The notes under the pieces were generated by a model, which worked only from the letters and a program-made list of their open reading frames with translations, made no database searches and was not told the DNA's origin. Below are positions 5,383 to 43,487 of a stretch of DNA of 64,000 nucleotides, piece after piece (the first letter of the stretch is position 1; each line of letters opens with the position of its first letter). The stretch is from Phytohabitans rumicis. Lineage in GTDB: Bacteria; Actinomycetota; Actinomycetes; Mycobacteriales; Micromonosporaceae. A program made the translations under genes and the position numbers. The DNA lies in contig NZ_BLPG01000001.1 of the NCBI RefSeq assembly GCF_011764445.1, forward strand, positions 2,356,001-2,420,000. The letters are read 5' to 3'.

Positions 5383-7566
5383 CTATGTGGTGTCCGGCCG
5401 GCCCTCGACGTGGAGCTGCGGCAGCACGCGCTCCAGCGGCGCGGGCAGCCACCAGTTGGCCCGGCCGAGCAGGTGCATGGCGGCCGGCACCAGCAGCATC
5501 CGCACCACGGTGACGTCGATGAGGATGGCCACCGCCATGCCGAAGCCGAAGACCTTGACCGCGATGTCCGAGCTGGGCACGAACGCCGCGAATACCGCGA
5601 GCATGATGGCCGCCGCCGCGGTGATCACCCGTCCGGTACTGGCGAGTCCGTCGCCCACCGCGCGACCGTTGTCCCGGGTGCGGACCCAGCCTTCGCGCAT
5701 GCGGCTGAGCAAGAACACCTCGTAGTCCATGGACAGTCCAAAGAGGATCGCGAACATCAGTACCGGGATGAACGCGGCGAGCGGCGTCGCGGTGTCGATG
5801 CCGATCAGCTGACCGAGCCAGCCTCCCTGCAGCGCGAGCGCCACCACGCCGTACGCCGCCGCGACCGACAGCAGGTTGAGCGCCGCCGCGGTCAGCGGGA
5901 TCACGACGCTGCGGAACGCCAGCATCAGCAGAAGCATCGACAGCAGCACCACGCCGCCGATGAGCAGTGGGAGCCGCTTGGCGATGTTGGTGTTGGTGTC
6001 GATCGCGGTCGCGGTCACCCCGCCCACGTACGCCTCGGCGTCGGTGCCGGCGGTGGCGGCCGGGATCACCCGCTCCCGGATGGTGCGGACGAGTTCCTCG
6101 GTGGCGGCGTCCTGCGGCCCGGTTGCCGGCACCACGGTCATCAGCGCGGTGTCACCGGCCGGGTTGAGCTGGGCTGGCGACACCGCCGCGACGCCGGGCG
6201 TTTCGGAGAGCTCGGCACCCAGGCGGGCGGCGACGGCCACGTCGGCGACCAGCAACAGCGGCCCGTTGGCACCCGGCCCGAAGCCCTCGGCCACCGCGTC
6301 GTACGACCGCCGGCTGGACGTGCCCGCGCCGTCGTTGCCCGCGTCCGGGAAGCCGAAGTTGACGCTGAGGAACGGCACAGCCAAGGCGAGCAGCGCCGCC
6401 ACCCCGGCCAGCATGCCCACGACGCGGTACCGGCGTACCAACCGGTTCCACCACGTCCAGCCGCGGGCCGGCCCCATCCGCGTGGCCTTGCGGGTTACCA
6501 GCGGTACCCGCAAGCGATCGATCCACTTGCCCAGGTAGCCCAGCAGCGCGGGGAAGAGCGTGACCGCCGCGGCCAACACCACGAAGACGGCCACCATCGT
6601 GACGGCGGCCGCCCCGCTCATGAAGGACAGCCCCATCGCGAACAGCCCCAGCATGCTCACCAGCACGGTGCCGCCGGCCACGAGCACCGCCCGGCCGGCT
6701 GTGTCCATTGTGGCCACCGTGGCGTCCTCCGGGTTCAGGCCTTTGGCGCGCCACTCCCGGAAGCGGGTCACCATCAGCAGGGCGTAGTCGATGCCCAGCG
6801 CGATCCCCAGCATCGAGGCCAGCACCGGCGCCCAATCGGGCACGTCGAGCAGCGCGGCGACGAGTCCGGTGAGCGTTCCGCTGACCGCCAGCCCGGCGAT
6901 CGCCACGCCGAGCGGCAGCCCCGCCGCGACCACGGTGCCGAACATGACCAGCAGGATGACGGCCGCCACCAGCAGGCCGATGCCCTCGGACCCGACCTCG
7001 TTTCCCTCGGCCACCTGGATGGAACGCCCGCCAAGCGCGACCTCCAGCCCCGGGCGGCTGGCCTCCTCGGCCGCCCCGAGGAGGCGCTCGGTGTCGGCGA
7101 CCGGCATGTCCGCCGGGTTCGCCACGTCGAGGTTCAGCCTGGCCAGCAGCGTCCGGCCGTCCGCGGATACGCCGCCGGGCGACGCGTACGGGTCGTCCAC
7201 GCCGGCCACATGAGGCAGGCCGGCCAGCTTGGCGAGCAGGGCGGCCACCTCTTCGCGTACGGCCACGTCGGTCACGGGGGTGTTCGCGCGTACCACGACG
7301 TCGACGCTGTCGCCGGCGCGCGCCGGGAACCGCTGCGCCAGCCGATCCTGGGCCAGCTTCGAGTCGGAGCCGGGCGCCGAGTAGTCGGCCGCGAAGTCAC
7401 CGCCCAATATGGACGACAGCCCGAACGCGATCGCGAGGCCCACCAACCAGGCCAGCAACACCCGCCCGCGCCGGCGGAAGGCTAACCCGCCAAGACGGCC
7501 GAGCACGCCCGGCCGCGCACGGGCCGGCGCCGGGCGTTCCTGGGTTCTGGGCAGGGTGACGGTCAT
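5383..7566 (-). CDS. MMPL/RND family transporter
   Basis: 727 residues with the MMPL layout: one N-terminal membrane helix (RVLLAWLVGLAIAFGLSS), an extracytoplasmic domain, a helix bundle including LGIALGIDYALLMVTRFRE, a second extracytoplasmic domain and a second bundle including FGLSMDYEVFLLSRMREG. The paired GIDYALLM and SMDYEVFLL motifs are the MMPL proton-relay signature. Family members export lipids or drugs using the proton gradient. The ATG at 7566 has an ideal AAGGAGG Shine-Dalgarno 5 bp away. That region lies inside a 10-bp perfect inverted repeat (7564-7598). The gene is convergent with the propeller gene, with 14 bp between stops. Substrate unknown. Confidence 0.9.
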   Translation of the reverse strand: MTVTLPRTQERPAPARARPGVLGRLGGLAFRRRGRVLLAWLVGLAIAFGLSSILGGDFAADYSAPGSDSKLAQDRLAQRFPARAGDSVDVVVRANTPVTDVAVREEVAALLAKLAGLPHVAGVDDPYASPGGVSADGRTLLARLNLDVANPADMPVADTERLLGAAEEASRPGLEVALGGRSIQVAEGNEVGSEGIGLLVAAVILLVMFGTVVAAGLPLGVAIAGLAVSGTLTGLVAALLDVPDWAPVLASMLGIALGIDYALLMVTRFREWRAKGLNPEDATVATMDTAGRAVLVAGGTVLVSMLGLFAMGLSFMSGAAAVTMVAVFVVLAAAVTLFPALLGYLGKWIDRLRVPLVTRKATRMGPARGWTWWNRLVRRYRVVGMLAGVAALLALAVPFLSVNFGFPDAGNDGAGTSSRRSYDAVAEGFGPGANGPLLLVADVAVAARLGAELSETPGVAAVSPAQLNPAGDTALMTVVPATGPQDAATEELVRTIRERVIPAATAGTDAEAYVGGVTATAIDTNTNIAKRLPLLIGGVVLLSMLLLMLAFRSVVIPLTAAALNLLSVAAAYGVVALALQGGWLGQLIGIDTATPLAAFIPVLMFAILFGLSMDYEVFLLSRMREGWVRTRDNGRAVGDGLASTGRVITAAAAIMLAVFAAFVPSSDIAVKVFGFGMAVAILIDVTVVRMLLVPAAMHLLGRANWWLPAPLERVLPQLHVEGRPDTT

Positions 7567-7598
7567 CGGATCCTCCTTCATGGATAACGGATCCGATG
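7564..7598 (-). promoter_or_regulatory. Perfect inverted repeat covering the MMPL start codon
   Basis: CATCGGATCC at 7564-7573 and GGATCCGATG at 7589-7598 are exact reverse complements separated by 15 bp. In the minus-strand transcript the second arm contains the MMPL start codon and abuts the AAGGAGG ribosome site. The element could be a protein operator or an mRNA hairpin hiding the start. No regulator gene lies beside it. Confidence 0.5.
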
Positions 7599-7700
7599 CT
7601 TCCGGGCGGCCGGCCCCGCGTCGTCCGCCCACGAGCGGCACCGCCTACGTACCGGCGCCTACCCGCGCCACACCCCGACTACGCCCCTCGACGTACGCCC

Positions 7701-9044
7701 CTACGCCGCGAAGCGCCGGGGGTACCACACTCCGATGGCTCCCCCGGTGCGGCGGCAGGTGACCGCGGCAGGACCGGCCTGGCAGCCGACGGCGTCGCGG
7801 GCGACCCCCAGCACCCGGGTGGTCCAGGCGGCCGGATCCAGCTCCGCGATCCAGGTACGGCTGGTGCCGGGCTCCGTCCGCACCCCTAACATGCGCCCGT
7901 CCGGGGCGATCGACCGCGACGTCTCCCACCGCCCGAGGTCGGCGATCTGCCGGCCACTGTTCGCGTCGAGAACCGCGATCTGCGCGGGCCCGGGCGCCTT
8001 GCCGAACCCGAGCAGGGTGGATCCGGCATAGCTCAGTTGTTCCCACCGGTCGTCGGCCCACCGGGTGCGCCCGGTGTCCCGTTCCAGCATCCGTACGCCG
8101 CTGCGGCCCTTCCGCCCGCTGACGCACAACTCAGCGCCACAGCCGTCGACGGCCTCGCTGGACAGGTCGATGTCCGCCTGCCAACGCCGGTCCAGTCGAT
8201 CGAGGCCGTACGCCGTGGCCACCGGCCGGTCACCGGCCCAGCCGGCGACCAGCAGCAGCCCGCCGGCGACCTGCACCCCGGGCGCGCTGCCGGGCGCGGC
8301 CCCGTTCTCGCCCCGCGACAGCGTGCCGCTGCTCACCACGGCACCGGTGCGCACATCGCGTACCTCGGCCCGACCGCGGTCCGACCACCTGACCAGGCGA
8401 CTCCGGTCGGGTAGCACCCACTCACCCGAGGGCACCGACATCGCCCACCGCGCCTGCCCGGTGGTCAACGCGACAGCCTGATAGGTGTCCATCCGCCCGC
8501 CGGGTGCCCGGGACGACAGCAGGAGCTCACCGGCGCCGGCCTGGACCCACGAGCCGGAACGCCGCCACAGAAACCGGCCGTCCGCGGCGCGTAACGCGAT
8601 CGTCTGCGGCTGGAATTCGCCGGTGTGCAACAGCAGCGTGCCCTCGACGACGTTGGCGCCGTACACCGCACCGGACGTCAGCACCGAGACCTGCCACGCC
8701 GGCACGGCGCCGGCCACGCCGTACCTGATGACCGTCCGCTCGCCCGGCCCGGCCTGTGCGCCCCTCGCCCGCACCAGGTAGAGGCCGTCGGCGCTGGCCG
8801 CGACGATGGGCTGGTCGGTCCGGGCCGGCACGCCGGGAAATGTCTGCTCGAGCAGCGCGACCCGTACCGGCGACGCCGCCACGGCCGTGGCCAATACCGC
8901 AGCCGCGGCGCCCAGCACCGCGGCCGTACGCCAGCGTTCCAGCCTGCTGGCCAAGGATCGGCCCGGCAGGACCGGCGGATCCCGCACCGCCCCGAGGTCG
9001 ATCACCGCACCCGCGGCAGCCCGTCGAGGCTGTCCGACTGACAT
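7701..9044 (-). CDS. Membrane-anchored PQQ-like beta-propeller protein
   Basis: About 447 residues. The N-terminus is cytoplasmic with basic residues, then a single anchor helix (AAVLGAAAAVLATAVAA, about residues 45-62). The rest has repeated Trp-docked motifs such as ALRAADGRFLWRRSG, LTTGQARWAMSVPSG and ERDTGRTRWADD, typical of PQQ-enzyme-like propellers. No dehydrogenase catalytic residues or cofactor site are apparent, so I read it as an extracytoplasmic scaffold like BamB rather than an enzyme. Four cysteines sit in the C-terminal blades (CGAELC and VGCQAGPAAVTC) and may form disulfides. The start could be the ATG at 9044 or a GTG at 9062. Confidence 0.8.
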   Translation of the reverse strand: MSVGQPRRAAAGAVIDLGAVRDPPVLPGRSLASRLERWRTAAVLGAAAAVLATAVAASPVRVALLEQTFPGVPARTDQPIVAASADGLYLVRARGAQAGPGERTVIRYGVAGAVPAWQVSVLTSGAVYGANVVEGTLLLHTGEFQPQTIALRAADGRFLWRRSGSWVQAGAGELLLSSRAPGGRMDTYQAVALTTGQARWAMSVPSGEWVLPDRSRLVRWSDRGRAEVRDVRTGAVVSSGTLSRGENGAAPGSAPGVQVAGGLLLVAGWAGDRPVATAYGLDRLDRRWQADIDLSSEAVDGCGAELCVSGRKGRSGVRMLERDTGRTRWADDRWEQLSYAGSTLLGFGKAPGPAQIAVLDANSGRQIADLGRWETSRSIAPDGRMLGVRTEPGTSRTWIAELDPAAWTTRVLGVARDAVGCQAGPAAVTCRRTGGAIGVWYPRRFAA

Positions 9045-24651: not shown

Positions 24652-26380
24652 CTAGCCGTGCCATGAGCGCCACAGGGCGGCGTAGGTGCCGCCGGCGCGT
24701 ACCAGTTCGTCGTGGCTGCCGAGTTCGGCGATCCGGCCGTCTTCGAGTACGGCGACCCGGTCGGCGTCGTGTGCGGTGTTGAGCCGGTGCGCGATGGCCA
24801 CGACGGTGCGCCCCTCCAGGACCGCGGCGAGCGCGCGTTCGGTACGGCGGGCGGTTGTCGGGTCGAGCGCGGCGGTGGCCTCGTCGAGGATCAGCGTGTG
24901 CGGGTCGGCGAGCACGAGGCGTGCCAGTGCGAGCTGCTGCGCCTGCGCCGCGTTGAGTTCCAGGGCGCCGTCGCCGAGTTGCGTGTCGAGCCCTTCGGGA
25001 AGGTCGGTGGACCAGTCCACGCCCACCGCGGCCAGCGCGGAGCGCATCTGCTCGTCGGCCGCGCCCGGCGCGGCCAGAGCCAGGTTGTCACGAAGCGAGC
25101 CCATGAAGACGTGGTGCTCCTGGGTGACGAGCGCGATCCGGCGGCGACGCTCGGCCGGGTCGAGGTCGGTGACCGGGCAGCCGCCAACGCTGACCGTGCC
25201 TTCGCGCGGTGCGTCGATGCCGGCGAGCAGCCGGGCGAGCGTCGACTTGCCGGCGCCGGACGGGCCAACGATGGCTAGCCGCTCGCCGGGATACACCTCC
25301 AGGTCGATGCCGTGCAGCACGTCAACGCCCTCCGGGTAGGCGAACCGCGCACCGTGCACGACGAGCCGCTCGCCGCGTGGTTCGGACGTCGCGCCACGCG
25401 GCTGCGGCGGCACCAGACCGACGCCCAGCACGCGGGCGAAAGAGGCGATGCCGCGCTGCCCTGCTCGATCCATTGCAGCAGCCGGTCGAGCGGCTCGATC
25501 GCACGCTGGAGGTACAGCGCGGCGGCGACCACCTCGCCGAGCGAGAACCAGCCGTCGGCCAGGAAGAAGCCGCCGAGCAGCAGGACAGCGGCGATGGGAA
25601 GCGCATAGCTCGCTTCGATCACCGGAAAGAACACCGACCGCAGCGCGAGCGTGGCCCGCCGGGTCGCCCACACCTGGCCGATGCGCTCTGTGCCGTACCC
25701 GATGCGCTCGCCGCGCAGGCCGAGCGCTTCGACGGTGCGTGCGCCCTCGGCGGTCGTGGTGAGCGCGTCCGTGAGCTCCGCGGTCGCGGCGCCCTCGGCG
25801 AGGTACGCGGCGCTGGCTCGACGCAGGTACCAGCGGGCGACCGCGACGATCGACGGGAGGCCAACCAGCGCCGCCAGGCCGAGCATGGGATGCAGCAGGA
25901 AGATCGCCCCAAATAGCAGAGCCAGCTCGGCCGACGCGAGCACGATGATCGGCAGCACGTCCCGGACGGTGGTGCCCACCGTGCCCACGTCGACCGAGCT
26001 GCGCGTGGCCAGGTCGCCGGTGCCGGCGTGCTCGACCACGGACACGGGAAGCCGGAGTGTCTGCCGGACGAACTGTTCCCGTAGCCGCGCGACGGCCCGC
26101 TCGCCGAAGCGGTGGCCGGCGTACTGCGCGTACCGGGTCACCAGCCCTGTACGAGCACGCATCCGCCGATGGCCAACGCCAGCCGGTCGACCGTGCCGAC
26201 GTCCGCGCCGGCCGACACCTCGTCGACGATGCGACCGACCAGCCACGGTGTCGCGAGGCCGGCGATCGCGGCAGCGCTTTGCAGGATCAGCACGATCGCG
26301 ACCGCGCGACGGTCACGGGCGATCAGGCCGAGCGTGGCATGGCGTACGGCGGCCCGATCCGCGACCGGGAGCTGCTTCAT
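24652..26380 (-). CDS. ABC exporter half B (canonical Walker sites, degenerate signature), frame broken twice
   Basis: Reconstructed length about 576 residues. The membrane domain (start MKQLPVADRAAVRHATLGLI) is followed by an ATPase with an intact Walker A (GPSGAGKSTLARLLAG), Q-loop VTQEHHVF, Walker B TLILDEATAALD and His switch AIAHRL. The signature is LNAAQAQQLALARL instead of LSGGQ. Missing bases at 26145-26147 and 25459-25461 (CCC runs on the plus strand) split it into three frames; single-base insertions rejoin VLVQGLVTRY and WIEQGQRGIASF. Its start overlaps the stop of half A by 4 bp (ATGA), so the two halves are translated together as a heterodimeric exporter. Confidence 0.8.
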
Positions 26381-37149: not shown

Positions 37150-38207
37150 GTGTACGGCGTGAGCGTAACGATTGATGTGGCGCCCTCGACCGCCGGCCGA
37201 CCCGTGACGGCAAAGACCAAGCTGCACGTCATCACCGCCAATGTGGTGCTACTGCGACCCCCGACGCTCAGCGCGCTGAAGGCCATGTTGTGGGCGGATG
37301 TGCTGACCAAGGCGACCCGTCAGATCAGGCCGGCGACGATCACCTATCGCGCGCACGTGGACGTCGACACGTTGGGGTTCTGGGAATTCTTGGACCGGGT
37401 CGCCGGCGACCGGCACTATCCCGGACTCGACTCTGCCGACCTGGCGGCGCTATATCACCGGTACCGCCGGCAGCCCTGGCAGCCGCCGCACAAACGACTC
37501 ATTTCCTATGCGCAGGCGGTCGCTTTCGGTTGGCTGCATCCGGCCGGCCGGCGCACTGTCGACCTCTTCACGCGATACGCGCGGCTGCTTCGGCTGGCTG
37601 GTTTTGACGCGCTGCCGGACGCGGCGGGTTCGGCGGCGGCAGCCGGGAACGGCACCGCCACCACGCTGGCGCACGCCTACGGCGGCGCCCTGCCCAGGCA
37701 CCTGACCCGAACCGTCCTCGATCTGGCGCCGGCCATCGACCGGCAGGAGCCCGCGGTGATTCTGCACGACGTCCGCCGTACGGGGACTACAAGCGCCTGG
37801 AGCGGACGCTGCGCGGGTGGGTCCCGGCCCTGTCCCGGCTGGCGCTGCGCCGCTTGCACGACGACATGCCCGGTGGCGGCGACTCGGCGTCCCTGTCCGA
37901 CCTCGAACGCGTCGTCGAATCAGCCCGCCAGGCACTCGGCGACCAGGCGACCCAACTGGGCGTCCGGCTGTACTTCCTCGCCGTACTGGGACGCGACGAG
38001 CCGCACCGTTTCCACCCGGGCCTGTTACACAGATGGATCGGCCGGGCAGACCGGCTGCTGTGCCGGATTGCGGGCGGCGGGGACGTTACCGCCGCGCTGC
38101 GCCGCTTCGCCCGGCAGGGATACGTCAGCCCCTACGAGCTGACCACCGACCTGCTCGGCCACCGACCCATGCCGAGAAAGGACATCGTGCGCAGCGTCTA
38201 TGCCTGA
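37150..38207 (+). CDS. Unrecognised protein heading the isonitrile cluster, frameshifted
   Basis: Reconstructed length about 352 residues. The first 210 residues (TAKTKLHVITANVVLLRPPT, then FGWLHPAGRRTVDLFTRYAR) and the rest (GDYKRLERTLRGWVPALSRL to MPRKDIVRSVYA) are in different frames. One extra G in the run at 37782-37785 joins them as DVRRTGDYKRLE. The protein is helical by composition, with no signal peptide, membrane segment or motif I can name. It is 38 bp upstream of the isocyanide synthase, on the same strand, so a role in that pathway is likely. Starts: GTG at 37150 or 37159. Confidence 0.65.
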
Positions 38208-38245
38208 CGCTGGCCGCAACGCACGCGATGCGAAAGGCGGATGCC

Positions 38246-39235
38246 GTGACCGCGGACGCCCCTTCGACCGCTGTCGACCGGATTCTTCATATCATCACGG
38301 CCCAGCAGCGGTTCACGCCCGGCAACGAGTGCGCCGTGCGGCCCTGCCCGCGCTGCGCCGACGTGCACGGGGCGAAGATCCAGCAACAGATGGCGCGCGG
38401 TGAGCCGCTGTGCTTCCTGCTGCCCGCCTTCCCCGGCAAGTCACCGAACCCGCGCAAGGTCCTCGGCGTCCTGCCGGACATGGCCGAGGCCGTCTCGCTG
38501 GGTCGCCTCGATGAAATGTGCCGGCGTATCGGCGCCGTCTACGCTCCCGGCGCGCAGGTCGTCATCTGCTCCGACGGGCGGGTGTTCAGCGACGCGGTCG
38601 GCATCCGGGATGAGGCCATCACCGCGTACCAGCGCGCCCTGCGCGAGATGGCCGGGCGCATCGGTCCGAACACACTCGCGCTCTACCACCTCGACGACGT
38701 GTACCCCCAGGCGAGCCACGAGGACATGCGCGCGACGCTGACCGCCCGGTACGGCGAGGATCTGACCCTGCTCAAGCAGTGGATCAGCGAGGGCGGCGAG
38801 TTGCTGGCGCTGTACCGGGGAATCACCCGGTTCCTGTTCGAGGACGCCGACCGCCCGGACCGGCAGGACAGCCGGGCCGCCCGGCAACGCGACAGCCGGG
38901 CCCGCGCCTACGTGGTCATCCAGCGCAGCCGGGCGTGGGGCGAACTGGTCGGGCGGCACTTCCCCGACGCGCTGCGGCTGTCCATCCACCCCCAGGCATG
39001 CGGCGCGAAGAAGCTCGGCATCAGCCTGATGGACGCCACCGAGAACTGGCTGACCGCCTGGCACGGGGTTGCCGTGGACGTCGGCGGTCGCTTCCTGCTC
39101 ATGAAGCGGTACCACGCGGAAAGCCTCGGCGCGGAGCTGGTCCACCGCGACGGGCGCCCCTCTCACTTCCGGCTCGCGGATCCGTCCAGCCTGCCGCCCT
39201 CGAAGGAGATCCAGCATGAGACCACCGCCGCCTAG
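38246..39235 (+). CDS. PvcA/Dit1-type isocyanide (isonitrile) synthase
   Basis: 329 residues, the usual PvcA length. Hallmarks: CPRCADVHGAKIQQQMARGE, FLLPAFPGKSPNPRKVLGVL (conserved P-F-x-x-K-S-x-N and KVLG), VICSDGRVFSDAVG, and RLSIHPQACGAKKLGISLMD near the C-terminus. PvcA-family enzymes convert the amino group of L-tyrosine or L-tryptophan to an isonitrile using ribulose-5-phosphate as carbon source. GTG at 38246 is chosen because AAAGGCGG precedes it; an ATG at 38228 lacks a ribosome site. The oxygenase gene starts inside its last 20 bp, which fits a PvcA-PvcB pair. Confidence 0.92.
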   Translation: MTADAPSTAVDRILHIITAQQRFTPGNECAVRPCPRCADVHGAKIQQQMARGEPLCFLLPAFPGKSPNPRKVLGVLPDMAEAVSLGRLDEMCRRIGAVYAPGAQVVICSDGRVFSDAVGIRDEAITAYQRALREMAGRIGPNTLALYHLDDVYPQASHEDMRATLTARYGEDLTLLKQWISEGGELLALYRGITRFLFEDADRPDRQDSRAARQRDSRARAYVVIQRSRAWGELVGRHFPDALRLSIHPQACGAKKLGISLMDATENWLTAWHGVAVDVGGRFLLMKRYHAESLGAELVHRDGRPSHFRLADPSSLPPSKEIQHETTAA

Positions 39236-40076
39236 CCTGCTCGATCACGTGGAACTACGGCCCCAGGCCCCGTTCGGGCTGCTCGTCGAGGCACGCACCG
39301 GGGATGCCCGGCTCGACGAGCTCCCGGCGAAGCTCTTGCTGGACAAGGCCCGCGAGCACCGGCTACTGCTGCTGCGCGGGTTCGTCCCCTTCGCCGACGC
39401 GCGGCAGTTGACCGCGTTCGGCGAGTACCTGGGCGACGTACCCATCTGGTCCTTCGGCCCGATCCTGGAGTTGGTCGAGCACGAGCACCCGGCGGACGGG
39501 GTGTTCGGCAACAACTGGCTGCCGTTCCACTGGGACGGCATGTTCCTCGATCGGATCCCGGAATTTCAAGTATTCCAATGCATCTACGCACCGGGCGATG
39601 GCCAGGGCGGGCGCACCGTCTTCTCGGACACCACGCTGGTCCTGGCGGACCTCCCGGCGGACTCGCGTTCCGTCTGGGAGGCGACCGAGGTGGTCTACAC
39701 GGTCGCCAAGAAAGCCCACTACGGCGGGCTGGTGCGCTCCCCGCTGGTCGTACCGCATCCGGACCGCAGCTTCCCGACCTTGCGATACCACGAGCCGGTA
39801 CCGGCGGAGATGGCCTACCCGAACCCGGTCACGCTGCGGTACGAGGGCATTCGCCCCGACGAGGTACCGCGGGTCGAACAGACGGTACGCGAGGCGCTGT
39901 ACCACCCCCGGCACGCCTACACCCACGACTGGCACACCGGAGACGTCGTCATCGCCGACAACTACACACTGCTACACGCCCGCGAGTCCTACACCAGGCA
40001 CTGCAACCGACACCTCCGCCGGGTGCACGTGATGGGCGATCCGCCGTTGACCAACCCCGCGCTGCCGCGCCCGTGA
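39216..40076 (+). CDS. PvcB-type Fe(II)/2-oxoglutarate oxygenase (TauD/TfdA family)
   Basis: 286 residues. The iron-binding facial triad is visible: HWD in NWLPFHWDGMFLDRIP (about residue 108) and the distal His in NYTLLHARESYTRH (about 252). The downstream RHLRRVHVMG supplies the 2-oxoglutarate Arg. PvcB enzymes act on the isonitrile made by PvcA, typically introducing a vinyl group with loss of CO2 or by desaturation. Overlap of 20 bp with the synthase gene and 4 bp with the methyltransferase gene shows one operon. Whether the product is tyrosine- or tryptophan-derived cannot be read from sequence. Confidence 0.9.
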   Translation: MRPPPPSLLDHVELRPQAPFGLLVEARTGDARLDELPAKLLLDKAREHRLLLLRGFVPFADARQLTAFGEYLGDVPIWSFGPILELVEHEHPADGVFGNNWLPFHWDGMFLDRIPEFQVFQCIYAPGDGQGGRTVFSDTTLVLADLPADSRSVWEATEVVYTVAKKAHYGGLVRSPLVVPHPDRSFPTLRYHEPVPAEMAYPNPVTLRYEGIRPDEVPRVEQTVREALYHPRHAYTHDWHTGDVVIADNYTLLHARESYTRHCNRHLRRVHVMGDPPLTNPALPRP

Positions 40077-40876
40077 CCGCGTCCCAGGATCGGTACACCT
40101 TCGACAACGCCGCCCCCACGGCGGCCCAGCGGGTTCGGCTGCTCGCCGAGTCGATCGACGGGCACACCACCGAAGTGCTCGCCGGGCTGGGCATCGCACA
40201 GGGCTGGCGGTGCCTGGAGGTGGGTCCGGGCGCCGGCACAATCACCGCCTGGCTGGCCGCCCGGGTCGGTCCGCGCGGCCGAGTCACCGCGCTGGACCTC
40301 GACCCGCGGCACGTACCGGGCGGCCCGACCATCGAGGTACGCCAGGACGACGTGCGCACCGCCGCCCTGCCCGATGCCCACTTCGATCTGATCCACGCCC
40401 GGCTCGTGCTGATGCACCTGCCGGAGCGCGACGAGGTGCTGCGCCGCTTGGCCGGTGCGCTGCGCCCGGGCGGGCTGCTGGTCGTCTCCGATTGGGACAC
40501 CACCTGGCGCCGGGGGCTGCTCATCGCGGCCAGCGACCCAGCCGCGGCCGGCGCGTTCGACGCCTACCAGGACGCGCTGGCCAACCTCGTGGTCAGCAAC
40601 GGCGGCGACCTCGCGTGGGCCAGCCGCGTACCGCTGGCGATGCGCTCCACCGGGCTGGTCGGCATCACCGGGGTCGGGCACAACCGGCTGCACGCCGGCG
40701 GCGACGCCGGCTGCCTGCTGCACGCCGCGAACACTCACCAACTGGCCGACCCGTTGCGCCGGTGGGGGTTGACCGTCGAGCAGATCGAGCGGGTACGCGC
40801 GGCGATGGCCCACCCCGACACGTTGATCCACTCGTACTGGCTGTACACGACGGTCGGCCGCCGCCCGGAGGAGTGA
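40073..40876 (+). CDS. SAM-dependent methyltransferase of the isonitrile cluster
   Basis: 267 residues from a GTG overlapping the previous TGA (GTGA). Class I fold: motif I CLEVGPGAGTITAWLAARVG (residues 44-63), ALDLDPRH, DLIHARLVLMHLPERDEVLR and LRPGGLLVVSDWDTTW. UbiE-like small-molecule methyltransferase. Its place at the end of the PvcA-PvcB operon suggests tailoring of the isonitrile product, for example O-methylation of a phenol or carboxylate; that is inference. Convergent with the beta-helix glycosidase gene, 17 bp between stops. Confidence 0.88.
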   Translation: MTASQDRYTFDNAAPTAAQRVRLLAESIDGHTTEVLAGLGIAQGWRCLEVGPGAGTITAWLAARVGPRGRVTALDLDPRHVPGGPTIEVRQDDVRTAALPDAHFDLIHARLVLMHLPERDEVLRRLAGALRPGGLLVVSDWDTTWRRGLLIAASDPAAAGAFDAYQDALANLVVSNGGDLAWASRVPLAMRSTGLVGITGVGHNRLHAGGDAGCLLHAANTHQLADPLRRWGLTVEQIERVRAAMAHPDTLIHSYWLYTTVGRRPEE

Positions 40877-40893: not shown

Positions 40894-43487
40894 TCAGCGC
40901 TCGCCGAAGACCTGTAGCTCGGACACGCTGCCGCCCGAGCCGCTGGAATCGGTGACCGTCAGCCGGACGTGGCGGGCCGGCACACCGCCCGTGGCGAGCG
41001 AATAGTTGGTCGCCCCGGTGGTCAGCGACCCGGTGTGGTCGTCGAGCAGGGTCCAGGTGGTGGGCGTGTCGCCGGCGTCGGCGGAGACCTCGACCCGGTA
41101 CCGGTAGCCGCTCGCCTTCTCGAAGGTCGTCACCACCGCCGTCACCTGCCGGACCGCACCGAGGTCGACCTGCAACCAGGACGGGTCCGGCAGGCCGGCT
41201 CCCTGTGCCCAACGGGTGCCGGGGGCGCCGTCGACGGCCTTCTCCGGTGCGTACTCGGCGGAGTACCGCGAGGAGCTTGTGGCCTTCGCGTGGCGGGCGA
41301 GGTTGTCCAACTGGGGTTGGGTGACCGTCACCGTCGCGCTCGGCGCGCCGAGGTTGCCCGCCGCGTCGCGGGCCCGGACCGTGAGGGGGTAGGTGGTGCC
41401 CGGGACGAGGCCGCCGATCCGCACCTTCGTGGTCGCGGAGGCACTGACCAGGCGCCCGTCGGCGAAGATCTCGTAGCCGGTCACCGCCACGTTGTCGCGG
41501 GCCGTGGTCCAGCTCAGGTCCGCGACCGAGGGCAGGACGGCGACGGCGGACACCCCCTCGGCCCGGCCCGGCGCGGTCCGGTCGGCGATCGGTGCCGGCG
41601 GGTCGAGGTCGCGGTAGGCGGGTTCGAGCCCGGCGCCGGTCGTGACGGAGGCGGGCAGGGCGTCGCAGGACGGCACGACGGCGTTGTCGGCGATCACGTT
41701 GTTGGGGCTGCCCTGCACGGCGACATCTGGGTTGGTGGTGACGTTGTGGTCGGCGGCGTTGTACCGCGCTCCGCCTCCGTTGATGAGCAGCCACCGTACG
41801 TCGGTACGGCAGAAGGCGTTCTCGGTGACGTGCACGAAGCGGCTGCCCTCGTCGAGGTAGACCGGGCCGTACCCGGTCGGCCCGAGGTCGTGGACGTAGT
41901 TCCGGTGGATGACGGTGCCGGGGTCGGCGCCCAGGTGGTAGATGCCGCCGCCGTCGGCGAGCGTGTTCATCAGGTCGTAGATGTGGTTGGCGTAGACCGC
42001 GTTGTCCAGGCTCGTCGTGGCGGTGTCGTACATGGTGACGCCGAGGTTGCCGGGATAGGCGGGGTTGCCGCCCGGATCGGTCAACCCGAAGCCCCAGCCG
42101 ATCGAGATGCCGCTGTAGGGCAGGTTGTGCAGGGTGTTGTGGTGCACCGCGCTGCGGGTGGTGTACCCGACGAAGATCGCGACGGCGTCCGCGTACTCGG
42201 TGCCGATCCGGGTGACCAGGTTGTTGGCGAGGGTGTTGTCGCTGGTGATCAGGCGCGGGTCGGCGGGGTGGTGGTCGGCCTCGTCGATGCCGCCGAGCTG
42301 GATGCCGGCGGAGGAGATGTCCTCGAACCGGTTGCCGATGACGGTGCCGCGCTGGCTGCCGGTGCCCAGGTTGAGCCCGGCGGCGCCCAGCCGGGTGAAG
42401 ACGTTGCGGTCGAAGGCGAGGTCGCGATCGTTCTCGAAGCTCACCGCGGCCGGGGTCTTGGCCCAGGCCGCACGGGTGGAGTCGAAGTCGGGGTTGGTGG
42501 CGACGGCGCCGACGATGTGGAACCCGGCCTGCACGTCGGCATAGCCCTCGTCGGTGTCGGGTGCGAGCCAGGTGGCGTACGAGAAGGTCAGCCCTTGGAA
42601 CCGGAGGTTGCGCACCGGGTCGCCGGGCGTGCCGTGGCCCCGGATCAGCGTCTCCAGCCTGGGCGCCACGACGTTCGCCGTCGCCATGTCCTGCCCGGTG
42701 AGCGGCTTGTAGTACAGGTAGCCGGCGGTCCGGTCGAGATACCACTCGCCGGGCTCGTCGAGCAGTTCGTAGGCGTTCTCGAACCAGGTCGGCGCCTCCA
42801 TGCCGATGCCGGTGTGCAGGTTGGCGTTGTGCCAGCACGGCTGCTGCACGGCGACGGCGGTGCCGGCGATCGACGCGACCGGGCAGCGGATGAGCTTCCA
42901 GGCGATCTGGGTGACCACCTCGACGTCGGACTGGTTTCGCCACCCGGCGCGGGTGCTGTCCGGTGCGGTGAACCCGTTGTCGGCCTTGGTGAAGCCGGTC
43001 AGCGGGGCCTGGGTGCGGGCCCGGGTGGCGCGCCGGCCGTCCACGAAGAGCTGGCGGGTCTTCAGGTCGCCGACCGGAGCCCGGTAGATGCCGCTGGCCG
43101 CGTCGTACCTCGACCAGCCGGTGATGCGCTGCCCCCGCTGATCACCGGGCGCTGGCCGGCGATCGCGCGGTACGTCACGCGGTGCCCGTCGGCGCCCGAG
43201 TCGGCGCCGGTCAGTTCGAGGGTGCGGTCCAGGACGTACGTGCCGCCCTGGAGGTTGACGAACACGTCGCCGCCACGGCCGGTGAGCTTGCGCGCCTCGT
43301 CGCGAGCGCGTTCGAGCGTCCGGAACGGGCGGGCCTTCGTGCCGGGCGCGGTGTCGGCGCCGCTCGGTGCCACGTAGATCTGGGCGGTCGACGAGCTGGC
43401 CGAGGCGGCGCCCGGGAGGGGCAGGAGGGTGGCGGTGAGGGCGAGGGCGAGGATCCTGGTGCCACGCCGCCGGTCGGGTGTCTTCAA
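40894..43487 (-). CDS. Secreted beta-helix glycosidase-like protein with FN3 and F5/8C domains, frameshifted
   Basis: About 864 residues. Signal peptide (RILALALTATLLPLPGAASA), then IYVAPSGADTAPGTKARPFR and VNLQGGTYVLDRTLELT, typical of GH141-like right-handed beta-helix enzymes. The helix region has repeated NxxVYANHIYDL and HRNYVHDLGPTG turns. FN3 (SAVAVLPSVADLSWTTARDN) and a C-terminal discoidin/CBM32 domain (NLARHAKATSSSRYSAEYAP) follow. One extra C in the plus-strand run at 43132-43136 joins PVISGG to QRITGWSRYD. The TTG start (GGAGGAAC upstream) overlaps the preceding stop by 4 bp (TTGA). Probably degrades a plant or algal polysaccharide outside the cell. Confidence 0.78.

Follow-up and report, generated by a model that had tools for sequence, protein, structure and literature searches.

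An isonitrile operon of Phytohabitans rumicis with a candidate synthetase-derived partner of PvcA and PvcB

What could the first gene of a compact isonitrile operon contribute to the product? The operon in question lies at positions 37150–40876 of a 64,000-nucleotide stretch of the Phytohabitans rumicis genome (the whole of which we call the window), where four co-directional genes are packed tightly: a gene that we name X, those of a PvcA-type isonitrile synthase and a PvcB-type oxygenase, and that of an S-adenosylmethionine (SAM) methyltransferase. PvcA/PvcB isonitrile operons are already known, and X is the new element. We lean towards reading the operon as a variant of the PvcA/PvcB pathway that would yield a methylated aromatic isonitrile, perhaps with its carboxylate, and that includes in X a non-adenylating partner derived from an aminoacyl-tRNA synthetase (aaRS). 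Were X to work on an isonitrile acid, the tailoring step would be a new one.

The operon, its isonitrile core and the recurrence of X

The features of the operon are the following, with lengths in amino acids (aa) and X given as two pieces.

37150..37764, plus strand: N-terminal piece of X, putative arginyl-tRNA synthetase (ArgRS)-like family, PvcA-linked type; two-member X profile, E 3.7e-15; start at GTG 37150 or 37162
37773..38207, plus strand: C-terminal piece of X, in a frame that differs from that of the N-terminal piece; two-member X profile, E 3.3e-13
38246..39235, plus strand: PvcA/IsnA-type isocyanide (isonitrile) synthase, 329 aa; PF05141, 4.3e-74; 3e59, 2.1e-81; 66/68 conserved columns
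39216..40076, plus strand: PvcB/IsnB-type Fe(II)/2-oxoglutarate oxygenase, 286 aa; PF02668, 1.3e-40; 3eat, 9.7e-76; 7tcl, 1.1e-69
40073..40876, plus strand: class I SAM methyltransferase, 267 aa; PF08241, 1.2e-15

PvcA and PvcB overlap by 20 base pairs (bp; 39216–39235), PvcB and the methyltransferase by 4 bp (40073–40076), and 38 bp separate the X-frame stop at 38207 from the GTG start of PvcA at 38246. The same overlaps and spacing had been given in the initial annotation, which was made from the letters of the window; the conserved PvcA motif FPGKSPNPRKVLG and the PvcB HWD...H that it cited were both located in the sequence, and Pfam bears out its family calls (DIT1_PvcA, TauD and Methyltransf_11, with the E-values listed above for PF05141, PF02668 and PF08241). 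It had described an isonitrile operon to which a methyltransferase and a protein of unknown kind also belong; this make-up stands, and the unknown protein now appears to belong to a distant ArgRS-like family. We regard the four genes as a real operon, very probably for a small aromatic isonitrile.

PvcA matches PF05141 with 249.9 bits (cut-off 26.4), covering 1–271 of 273, and its nearest solved structure by sequence is the Pseudomonas aeruginosa PvcA, 3e59. In an alignment with 84 relatives, 68 columns reach a conservation of 95% or more, and PvcA keeps 66 of these, the exceptions being positions 87 and 271. By family precedent, the predicted substrates of PvcA are an amino acid and ribulose-5-phosphate, with an isonitrile as the product; against the L-tyrosine-specific equivalog NF045653 it scores 289 bits, below the 600-bit cut-off. 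Among six genomes of the genus this PvcA was found only in its own, and in one relative a larger protein shows a match over about 146 residues.

The nearest solved structures to PvcB by sequence are the PvcB 3eat and 7tcl, the latter of which we take as PIsnB since its residue numbers fit those of PMC9467999. The window PvcB has the TauD match, the H-x-D...H iron ligands and a carboxylate-binding Arg, and it keeps 58 of 61 highly conserved columns (78 relatives), including H105, D107, H254 and R269. These align with H101, D103, H250 and R265 of PIsnB, for which section 7 of PMC9467999 gives the metal ligands and the binding of the carboxylate by Arg265; the introduction of the same paper presents the PvcA plus PvcB route as established for the two families.

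Does X accompany PvcA elsewhere? As a single query PvcA met no relative in the first contig scan; a scan with an alignment gave at least 493 relatives, of which the best 80 were used. Together with the window and with nine further loci that were read with wide flanks (from the 29 PF05141 matches listed), these make up 90 PvcA loci, and a profile search found X in two of them, the window and the Wenjunlia tyrosinilytica locus L089 (NZ_BMMS01000011.1). In L089, X (6745–7926) is one open frame that overlaps PvcA (7923–9014) by 4 bp, and PvcB comes next on the same strand; compared with their counterparts in the window, PvcB is 60% identical, PvcA 50% and X about 33–36% over the matched stretches. 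Because the Wenjunlia X was itself among the rows of the profile, this search is partly circular and the score of that X is inflated. The 100% match of the PvcA-linked X rows to the family is likewise partly circular, so that independent support for X membership comes from the two-member profile and from the single matches of the Wenjunlia X, which reaches another X member at 1e-44. With its unbroken X, Wenjunlia is a direct place for testing the role of X.

The arrangement had seemed unfamiliar to the initial annotation, and a literature search that left subscription journals mostly uncovered showed no characterised cluster so composed: among the matches listed there was nothing on an X-PvcA-PvcB(-methyltransferase) arrangement and no synthetase-like partner of PvcA or PvcB. 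No paper describing the Wenjunlia locus was met, no search by that name having been made.

The reading frame of X and the family to which it belongs

In this assembly X is broken. A single unassigned protein had been annotated upstream of PvcA; its gene consists of two pieces in different frames rather than of one open reading frame (ORF). The ORF that begins at 37150 encodes 330 aa and ends at 38142, and its tail (37780–38139) has a guanine-plus-cytosine (GC) content by codon position of 0.51/0.88/0.78, which is not gene-like. The N-terminal piece (37162–37764; 0.70/0.53/0.83) and the C-terminal piece (37773–38204; 0.76/0.51/0.88) are gene-like, homologs of X align to both of them, and the N-terminal piece matches the full X profile at 2e-29 (hmmsearch). 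A programmed frameshift was considered and rejected on inspection of the junction by eye, with no program run, which showed no standard slippery site. Two further genes of the window also seem to be split across frames, namely an ABC transporter (24652–26246, with its ATPase part at 24652–25671 and its membrane part at 25275–26246) and a beta-helix/F5_F8 type C protein adjoining the operon (40894–43469, with its main part at 40894–43101 and a smaller other-frame piece that has no Pfam match). An assembly indel is for this reason the likelier cause, and the break in X is probably a sequencing or assembly artefact.

The same break invites another explanation, in which X is dead and a plain PvcA-PvcB plus methyltransferase operon makes, with its three enzymes, an O-methylated vinyl isonitrile or isocyanoacrylate. 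By eye, the window X looks more degenerate than any other row of the alignment; together with the frame split this would fit such a loss, and the fungal xanthocillin pathway has a putative methyltransferase, XanE, as the available part of PMC5974471 has it. Both pieces nevertheless retain gene-like codon-position GC and homology, the other frame-split genes (24652–26246 and 40894–43469) point to assembly indels, and X-PvcA-PvcB is maintained in Wenjunlia with X in one frame, so we consider a dead X unlikely.

The pieces of X matched nothing in Pfam or NCBIfam at E up to 1, and two other members of the family matched nothing in Pfam at E up to 10; neither collection has a name for the X family. 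With a window X piece as query, relatives were found in two genomes of the order. Searches with an X alignment found the family in 8 of 394 genomes of the class (its own included, two of them weak), in 16 of the 246 genomes of one genus, and in 29/394 genomes (one weak) of the family that contains both that genus and Wenjunlia. X-like matches in a giant ORF resembling nonribosomal peptide synthetases (L034 and L035; E 4.7e-5 and 8.1e-4) were weak and were set aside. When 22 X loci were read with wider flanks, DUF6182 was present in 21 and GH3 in 17, from which it follows that the X family moves in acyl-ligase contexts; PvcA or PvcB was near the X in none of the 22, some of which are cut by contig ends.

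Cassettes of X, DUF6182 and a GH3 acyl-ligase recur in actinobacteria (L036, L140, L141, L142, L215–L229), and they also hold a weakly thymidylate-kinase-like protein and often a LysR-substrate-like one; a further member is presumably a flavin adenine dinucleotide enzyme, judging by its motif. They resemble a probable biosynthetic system, and the X family marks a set of such probable cassettes with DUF6182 and GH3. The literature search returned no paper for 'DUF6182', and PADLOC had no match for three proteins of the X family and partner. The genome of the Wenjunlia locus (G965, to which L260 and L089 belong) has a second X gene on another contig (C20:123910–125007, E 2.6e-38), which may coexist there with the PvcA-linked X.

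What kind of protein is X? The X family compared with ArgRS (PF00750) gave an hhalign probability of 94.3% and an E of 1e-7 (for a single comparison) over 278 columns, and 93.0% with the Wenjunlia X left out; the X profile had 21 rows, 19 of them used after the hhalign filter and L201, L202 and L214 left out, and the ArgRS profile was made from 24 of 30 fetched loci. In control comparisons with that ArgRS profile, 20 column-shuffles stayed at or below 0.3%, the reversed profile gave 0.1%, and six other families gave 0.7% (PvcA), 0.2% (PvcB), 0.3% (GH3), 1.1% (DUF6182), 0.4% (LysR-like) and 0.1% (kinase-like). The X stretch PTKPLTPSHLKGLLWTDV aligns with the HVGH region of ArgRS and GKVRSARHGDW with its GKIFRTRAGDT region, which we take to be the HIGH and KMSKS sites. 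ArgRS was the second synthetase tried, since its motif spacing was a better fit than that of MetRS, which had looked apt by eye and was rejected at 4.1% or less (two profiles, of 9 and 7 sequences). Members of X have 373–416 aa as compared with 544–651 aa in 23 of the 24 ArgRS frames, so there is no room in X for an anticodon domain. Taken from sequence comparison, the evidence for a link with ArgRS is good for the X family and indirect for the window X.

The two PvcA-linked members depart from the family at these sites. All 45 other X loci keep the [ST]H of the HIGH-like stretch, and 42 of them have DUF6182 no more than 1.5 kb away. Those 45 are what remains of 47 loci after removal of L260, which is the same place as L089, and of L288, which had no match; they include L277, a repeat of L198, and L289, from a genome that is represented twice. 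In the PvcA-linked X the stretch reads LSALK (window) and LTTVK (Wenjunlia), with the [ST]H lost; the RSARHG-like, KMSKS-equivalent stretch is lost from both in the alignment as well, and DUF6182 had no match at 1e-3 in the window or in L089. The lost motifs and the missing DUF6182 suggest that the PvcA-linked sub-family has swapped partners and has given up adenylation of the usual kind.

This bears on the idea that X is an active ATP-using ligase with an altered motif, which would couple the isocyano acid to an amine and give an isonitrile amide, as MshC does with Cys in the mycothiol pathway. Ligases of this aaRS-like kind, such as MshC, do exist (PMC9437257, in the part available), the X family is related to ArgRS at the profile level, and GH3 acyl-ligases accompany other X members as described above. 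Since the stretches equivalent to HIGH and KMSKS are lost in both the window and the Wenjunlia X, and no gene of the operon was recognised as one that supplies an amine, we hold an active ligase to be quite improbable. Cyclodipeptide synthases are not known to have the ATP motifs, and X might in their manner use aminoacyl-tRNA without ATP, so that an amino acid would be joined to the isonitrile core. According to the available part of PMC12945691, these enzymes take charged tRNA as substrate and are similar to the TyrRS and TrpRS catalytic domains; against a like role for X stand the Pfam searches above, in which neither the window pieces nor the two other members found a match, and the fact that no tRNA-binding region was identified in X. 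We give this last possibility very little credence.

The carboxylate, the methyl group and a possible role for X

Section 12 of PMC9467999 ascribes to vinyl-isonitrile formers Lys or Arg at PIsnB position 107 and Asn or His at 188, and to isocyanoacrylate formers Leu at 107 and Cys at 188. The position equivalent to 107 carries Lys or Arg in 73 of 80 PvcB homologs; the window PvcB has Leu at the K107 position and His at the N188 position, and both the Wenjunlia PvcB and that of L059 (a Pseudonocardiales metagenome-assembled genome) have the pair Val and Gln. These three proteins form one clade (99/91) in the PvcB tree, which was built from 79 of 81 sequences after shorter pieces were dropped. 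Judging by these residues, we find it somewhat more probable that PvcB of this clade would leave the carboxylate on, giving an isocyanoacrylate, than that it would remove it.

The methyltransferase is of a common type, with matches at E 1e-20 in 35 of 197 genomes of the class, its own included, and the best match by identity outside its own genome is at 43%. None of nine fetched relatives had a PvcA, PvcB or X match within 1.5 kb; as they are common and none lies near these genes, they indicate no substrate, and they were rejected as a guide to function. The methyltransferase probably caps a phenol or the retained carboxylate, and an O-methylated or capped aromatic isonitrile is a plausible product. 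The initial annotation had drawn a link to the hazimycins of Micromonospora, which was not borne out: we found no paper joining 'isonitrile' and 'hazimycin', and hazimycin was absent among the matches listed.

In the reading towards which we lean, PvcA would use ribulose-5-phosphate to convert the amino group of an aromatic amino acid, which family precedent suggests is Tyr or Trp, into the isonitrile, PvcB would desaturate the side chain and on balance probably retain the carboxylate as an isocyanoacrylate, and the methyltransferase would cap an oxygen, that of the phenol or of the retained carboxylate. X would have arisen from an ArgRS-like catalytic domain without the anticodon domain, and would bind, and then hold or transfer, either the isonitrile acid or an aminoacyl donor. 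As its ATP-binding signature is lost, X is most likely non-adenylating, and by analogy our hypothesis is that its most likely task is the binding or transfer of a substrate with a carboxyl group, no adenylate being made. Proteins resembling aaRS do take part in natural-product pathways, such as MshC, SbzA, AcmF and the cyclodipeptide synthases (PMC9437257 and PMC12945691, in the parts available). We would go further only tentatively, holding it less likely than not, to propose that a family derived from ArgRS and at home in DUF6182/GH3 cassettes has been recruited to an isonitrile pathway, minus its ATP signature and DUF6182, and that it acts there on the carboxylate spared by PvcB, so that the product would be an isonitrile, carboxyl-modified or transferred, of a kind that bacteria are not yet known to make.

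A number of observations weigh against this reading. Single mutants did not change the product type (section 12 of PMC9467999), and the signature of the window PvcB is mixed, with a Leu that is PvcB-type yet a His at 188 that is PIsnB-type; five of the seven PvcB homologs without Lys or Arg have other pairs and no X, and the L059 contig begins about 660 bases before PvcA, too near for it to show a whole X gene. The PvcA tree leaves the window PvcA unplaced and not sister to the Wenjunlia PvcA, which groups weakly with that of L059 (84/89). The window methyltransferase had no homolog in the 80 PvcA loci (tblastn, 1e-5), and no methyltransferase follows PvcB in the Wenjunlia locus; one encoded there on the opposite strand, about 3.6 kb upstream of X, has no match to that of the window. 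As regards X, its PvcA-linked rows alone gave only 0.9% against ArgRS, an AlphaFold model of the Wenjunlia X from a three-row alignment had a mean predicted local distance difference test score (pLDDT) of 39.1, which is too poor for a claim on its fold, and a search of the PDB with the X profile gave four matches at chance level (an anti-CRISPR protein at 0.042, RecR at 0.61–0.71), one with a single X protein giving none. The frame break itself could be a genuine loss of function.

Related systems, neighbouring genes and other isonitrile loci

Among known systems, pvcABCD of P. aeruginosa (paerucumarin) has a PvcA and a PvcB that are clearly homologous to those of the window. Both PvcB proteins have Leu at the PIsnB-107 position and they differ at 188, which is His in the window and Cys in P. 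aeruginosa; presumably neither X nor a methyltransferase adjoins PvcB in pvcABCD. The systems of rhabduscin and byelyankacin likewise combine an isonitrile synthase, an Fe/2-oxoglutarate enzyme and a tailoring step, with the gene order isnAB-glycosyltransferase, so that tailoring is by glycosylation and not by methylation as in the window, and PIsnB has Lys107 and Asn188 where the window PvcB has Leu and His. The xan cluster of Aspergillus fumigatus (xanthocillin) shares with the window an isocyanide synthase and the putative methyltransferase XanE; unlike the window it is fungal, has a dioxygenase-synthase fusion and a P450, XanG, that may dimerise, and the available part of PMC5974471 brought no X to notice.

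The Wenjunlia locus has X-PvcA-PvcB in the same order and differs from the window in its unbroken X and in having no methyltransferase after PvcB. The X-DUF6182-GH3 cassettes of Streptomycetaceae and other actinobacteria have an X homologous to that of the window, but no PvcA/PvcB (0/22), a retained [ST]H and mostly a DUF6182 neighbour. ArgRS itself is similar to the X family over the 278 columns noted above, with the HIGH and KMSKS regions in register, and unlike the window X it is longer and has both signature motifs.

Upstream of the operon lie genes for a YCII protein and an ECF sigma factor, and downstream are convergent genes of the beta-helix/F5_F8, mandelate-racemase-like and GntR/FCD kinds; none of the flanking genes scanned looks like a part of the cluster. 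Other PvcA-related loci were noticed on the way. L013–L028 and L158 are long ORFs, ten of them above 1000 aa, with only a partial DIT1_PvcA match, which in L017 and L158 sits far within the pieces read. L060, L068, L085 and L102 are a different type of isonitrile cluster, in which PvcB is followed by a protein of about 505 aa with YLESLRDGR near its start and, in L068, L085 and L102, by a further protein beginning MCGITGW, which we take to be glutamine-amidotransferase-like.

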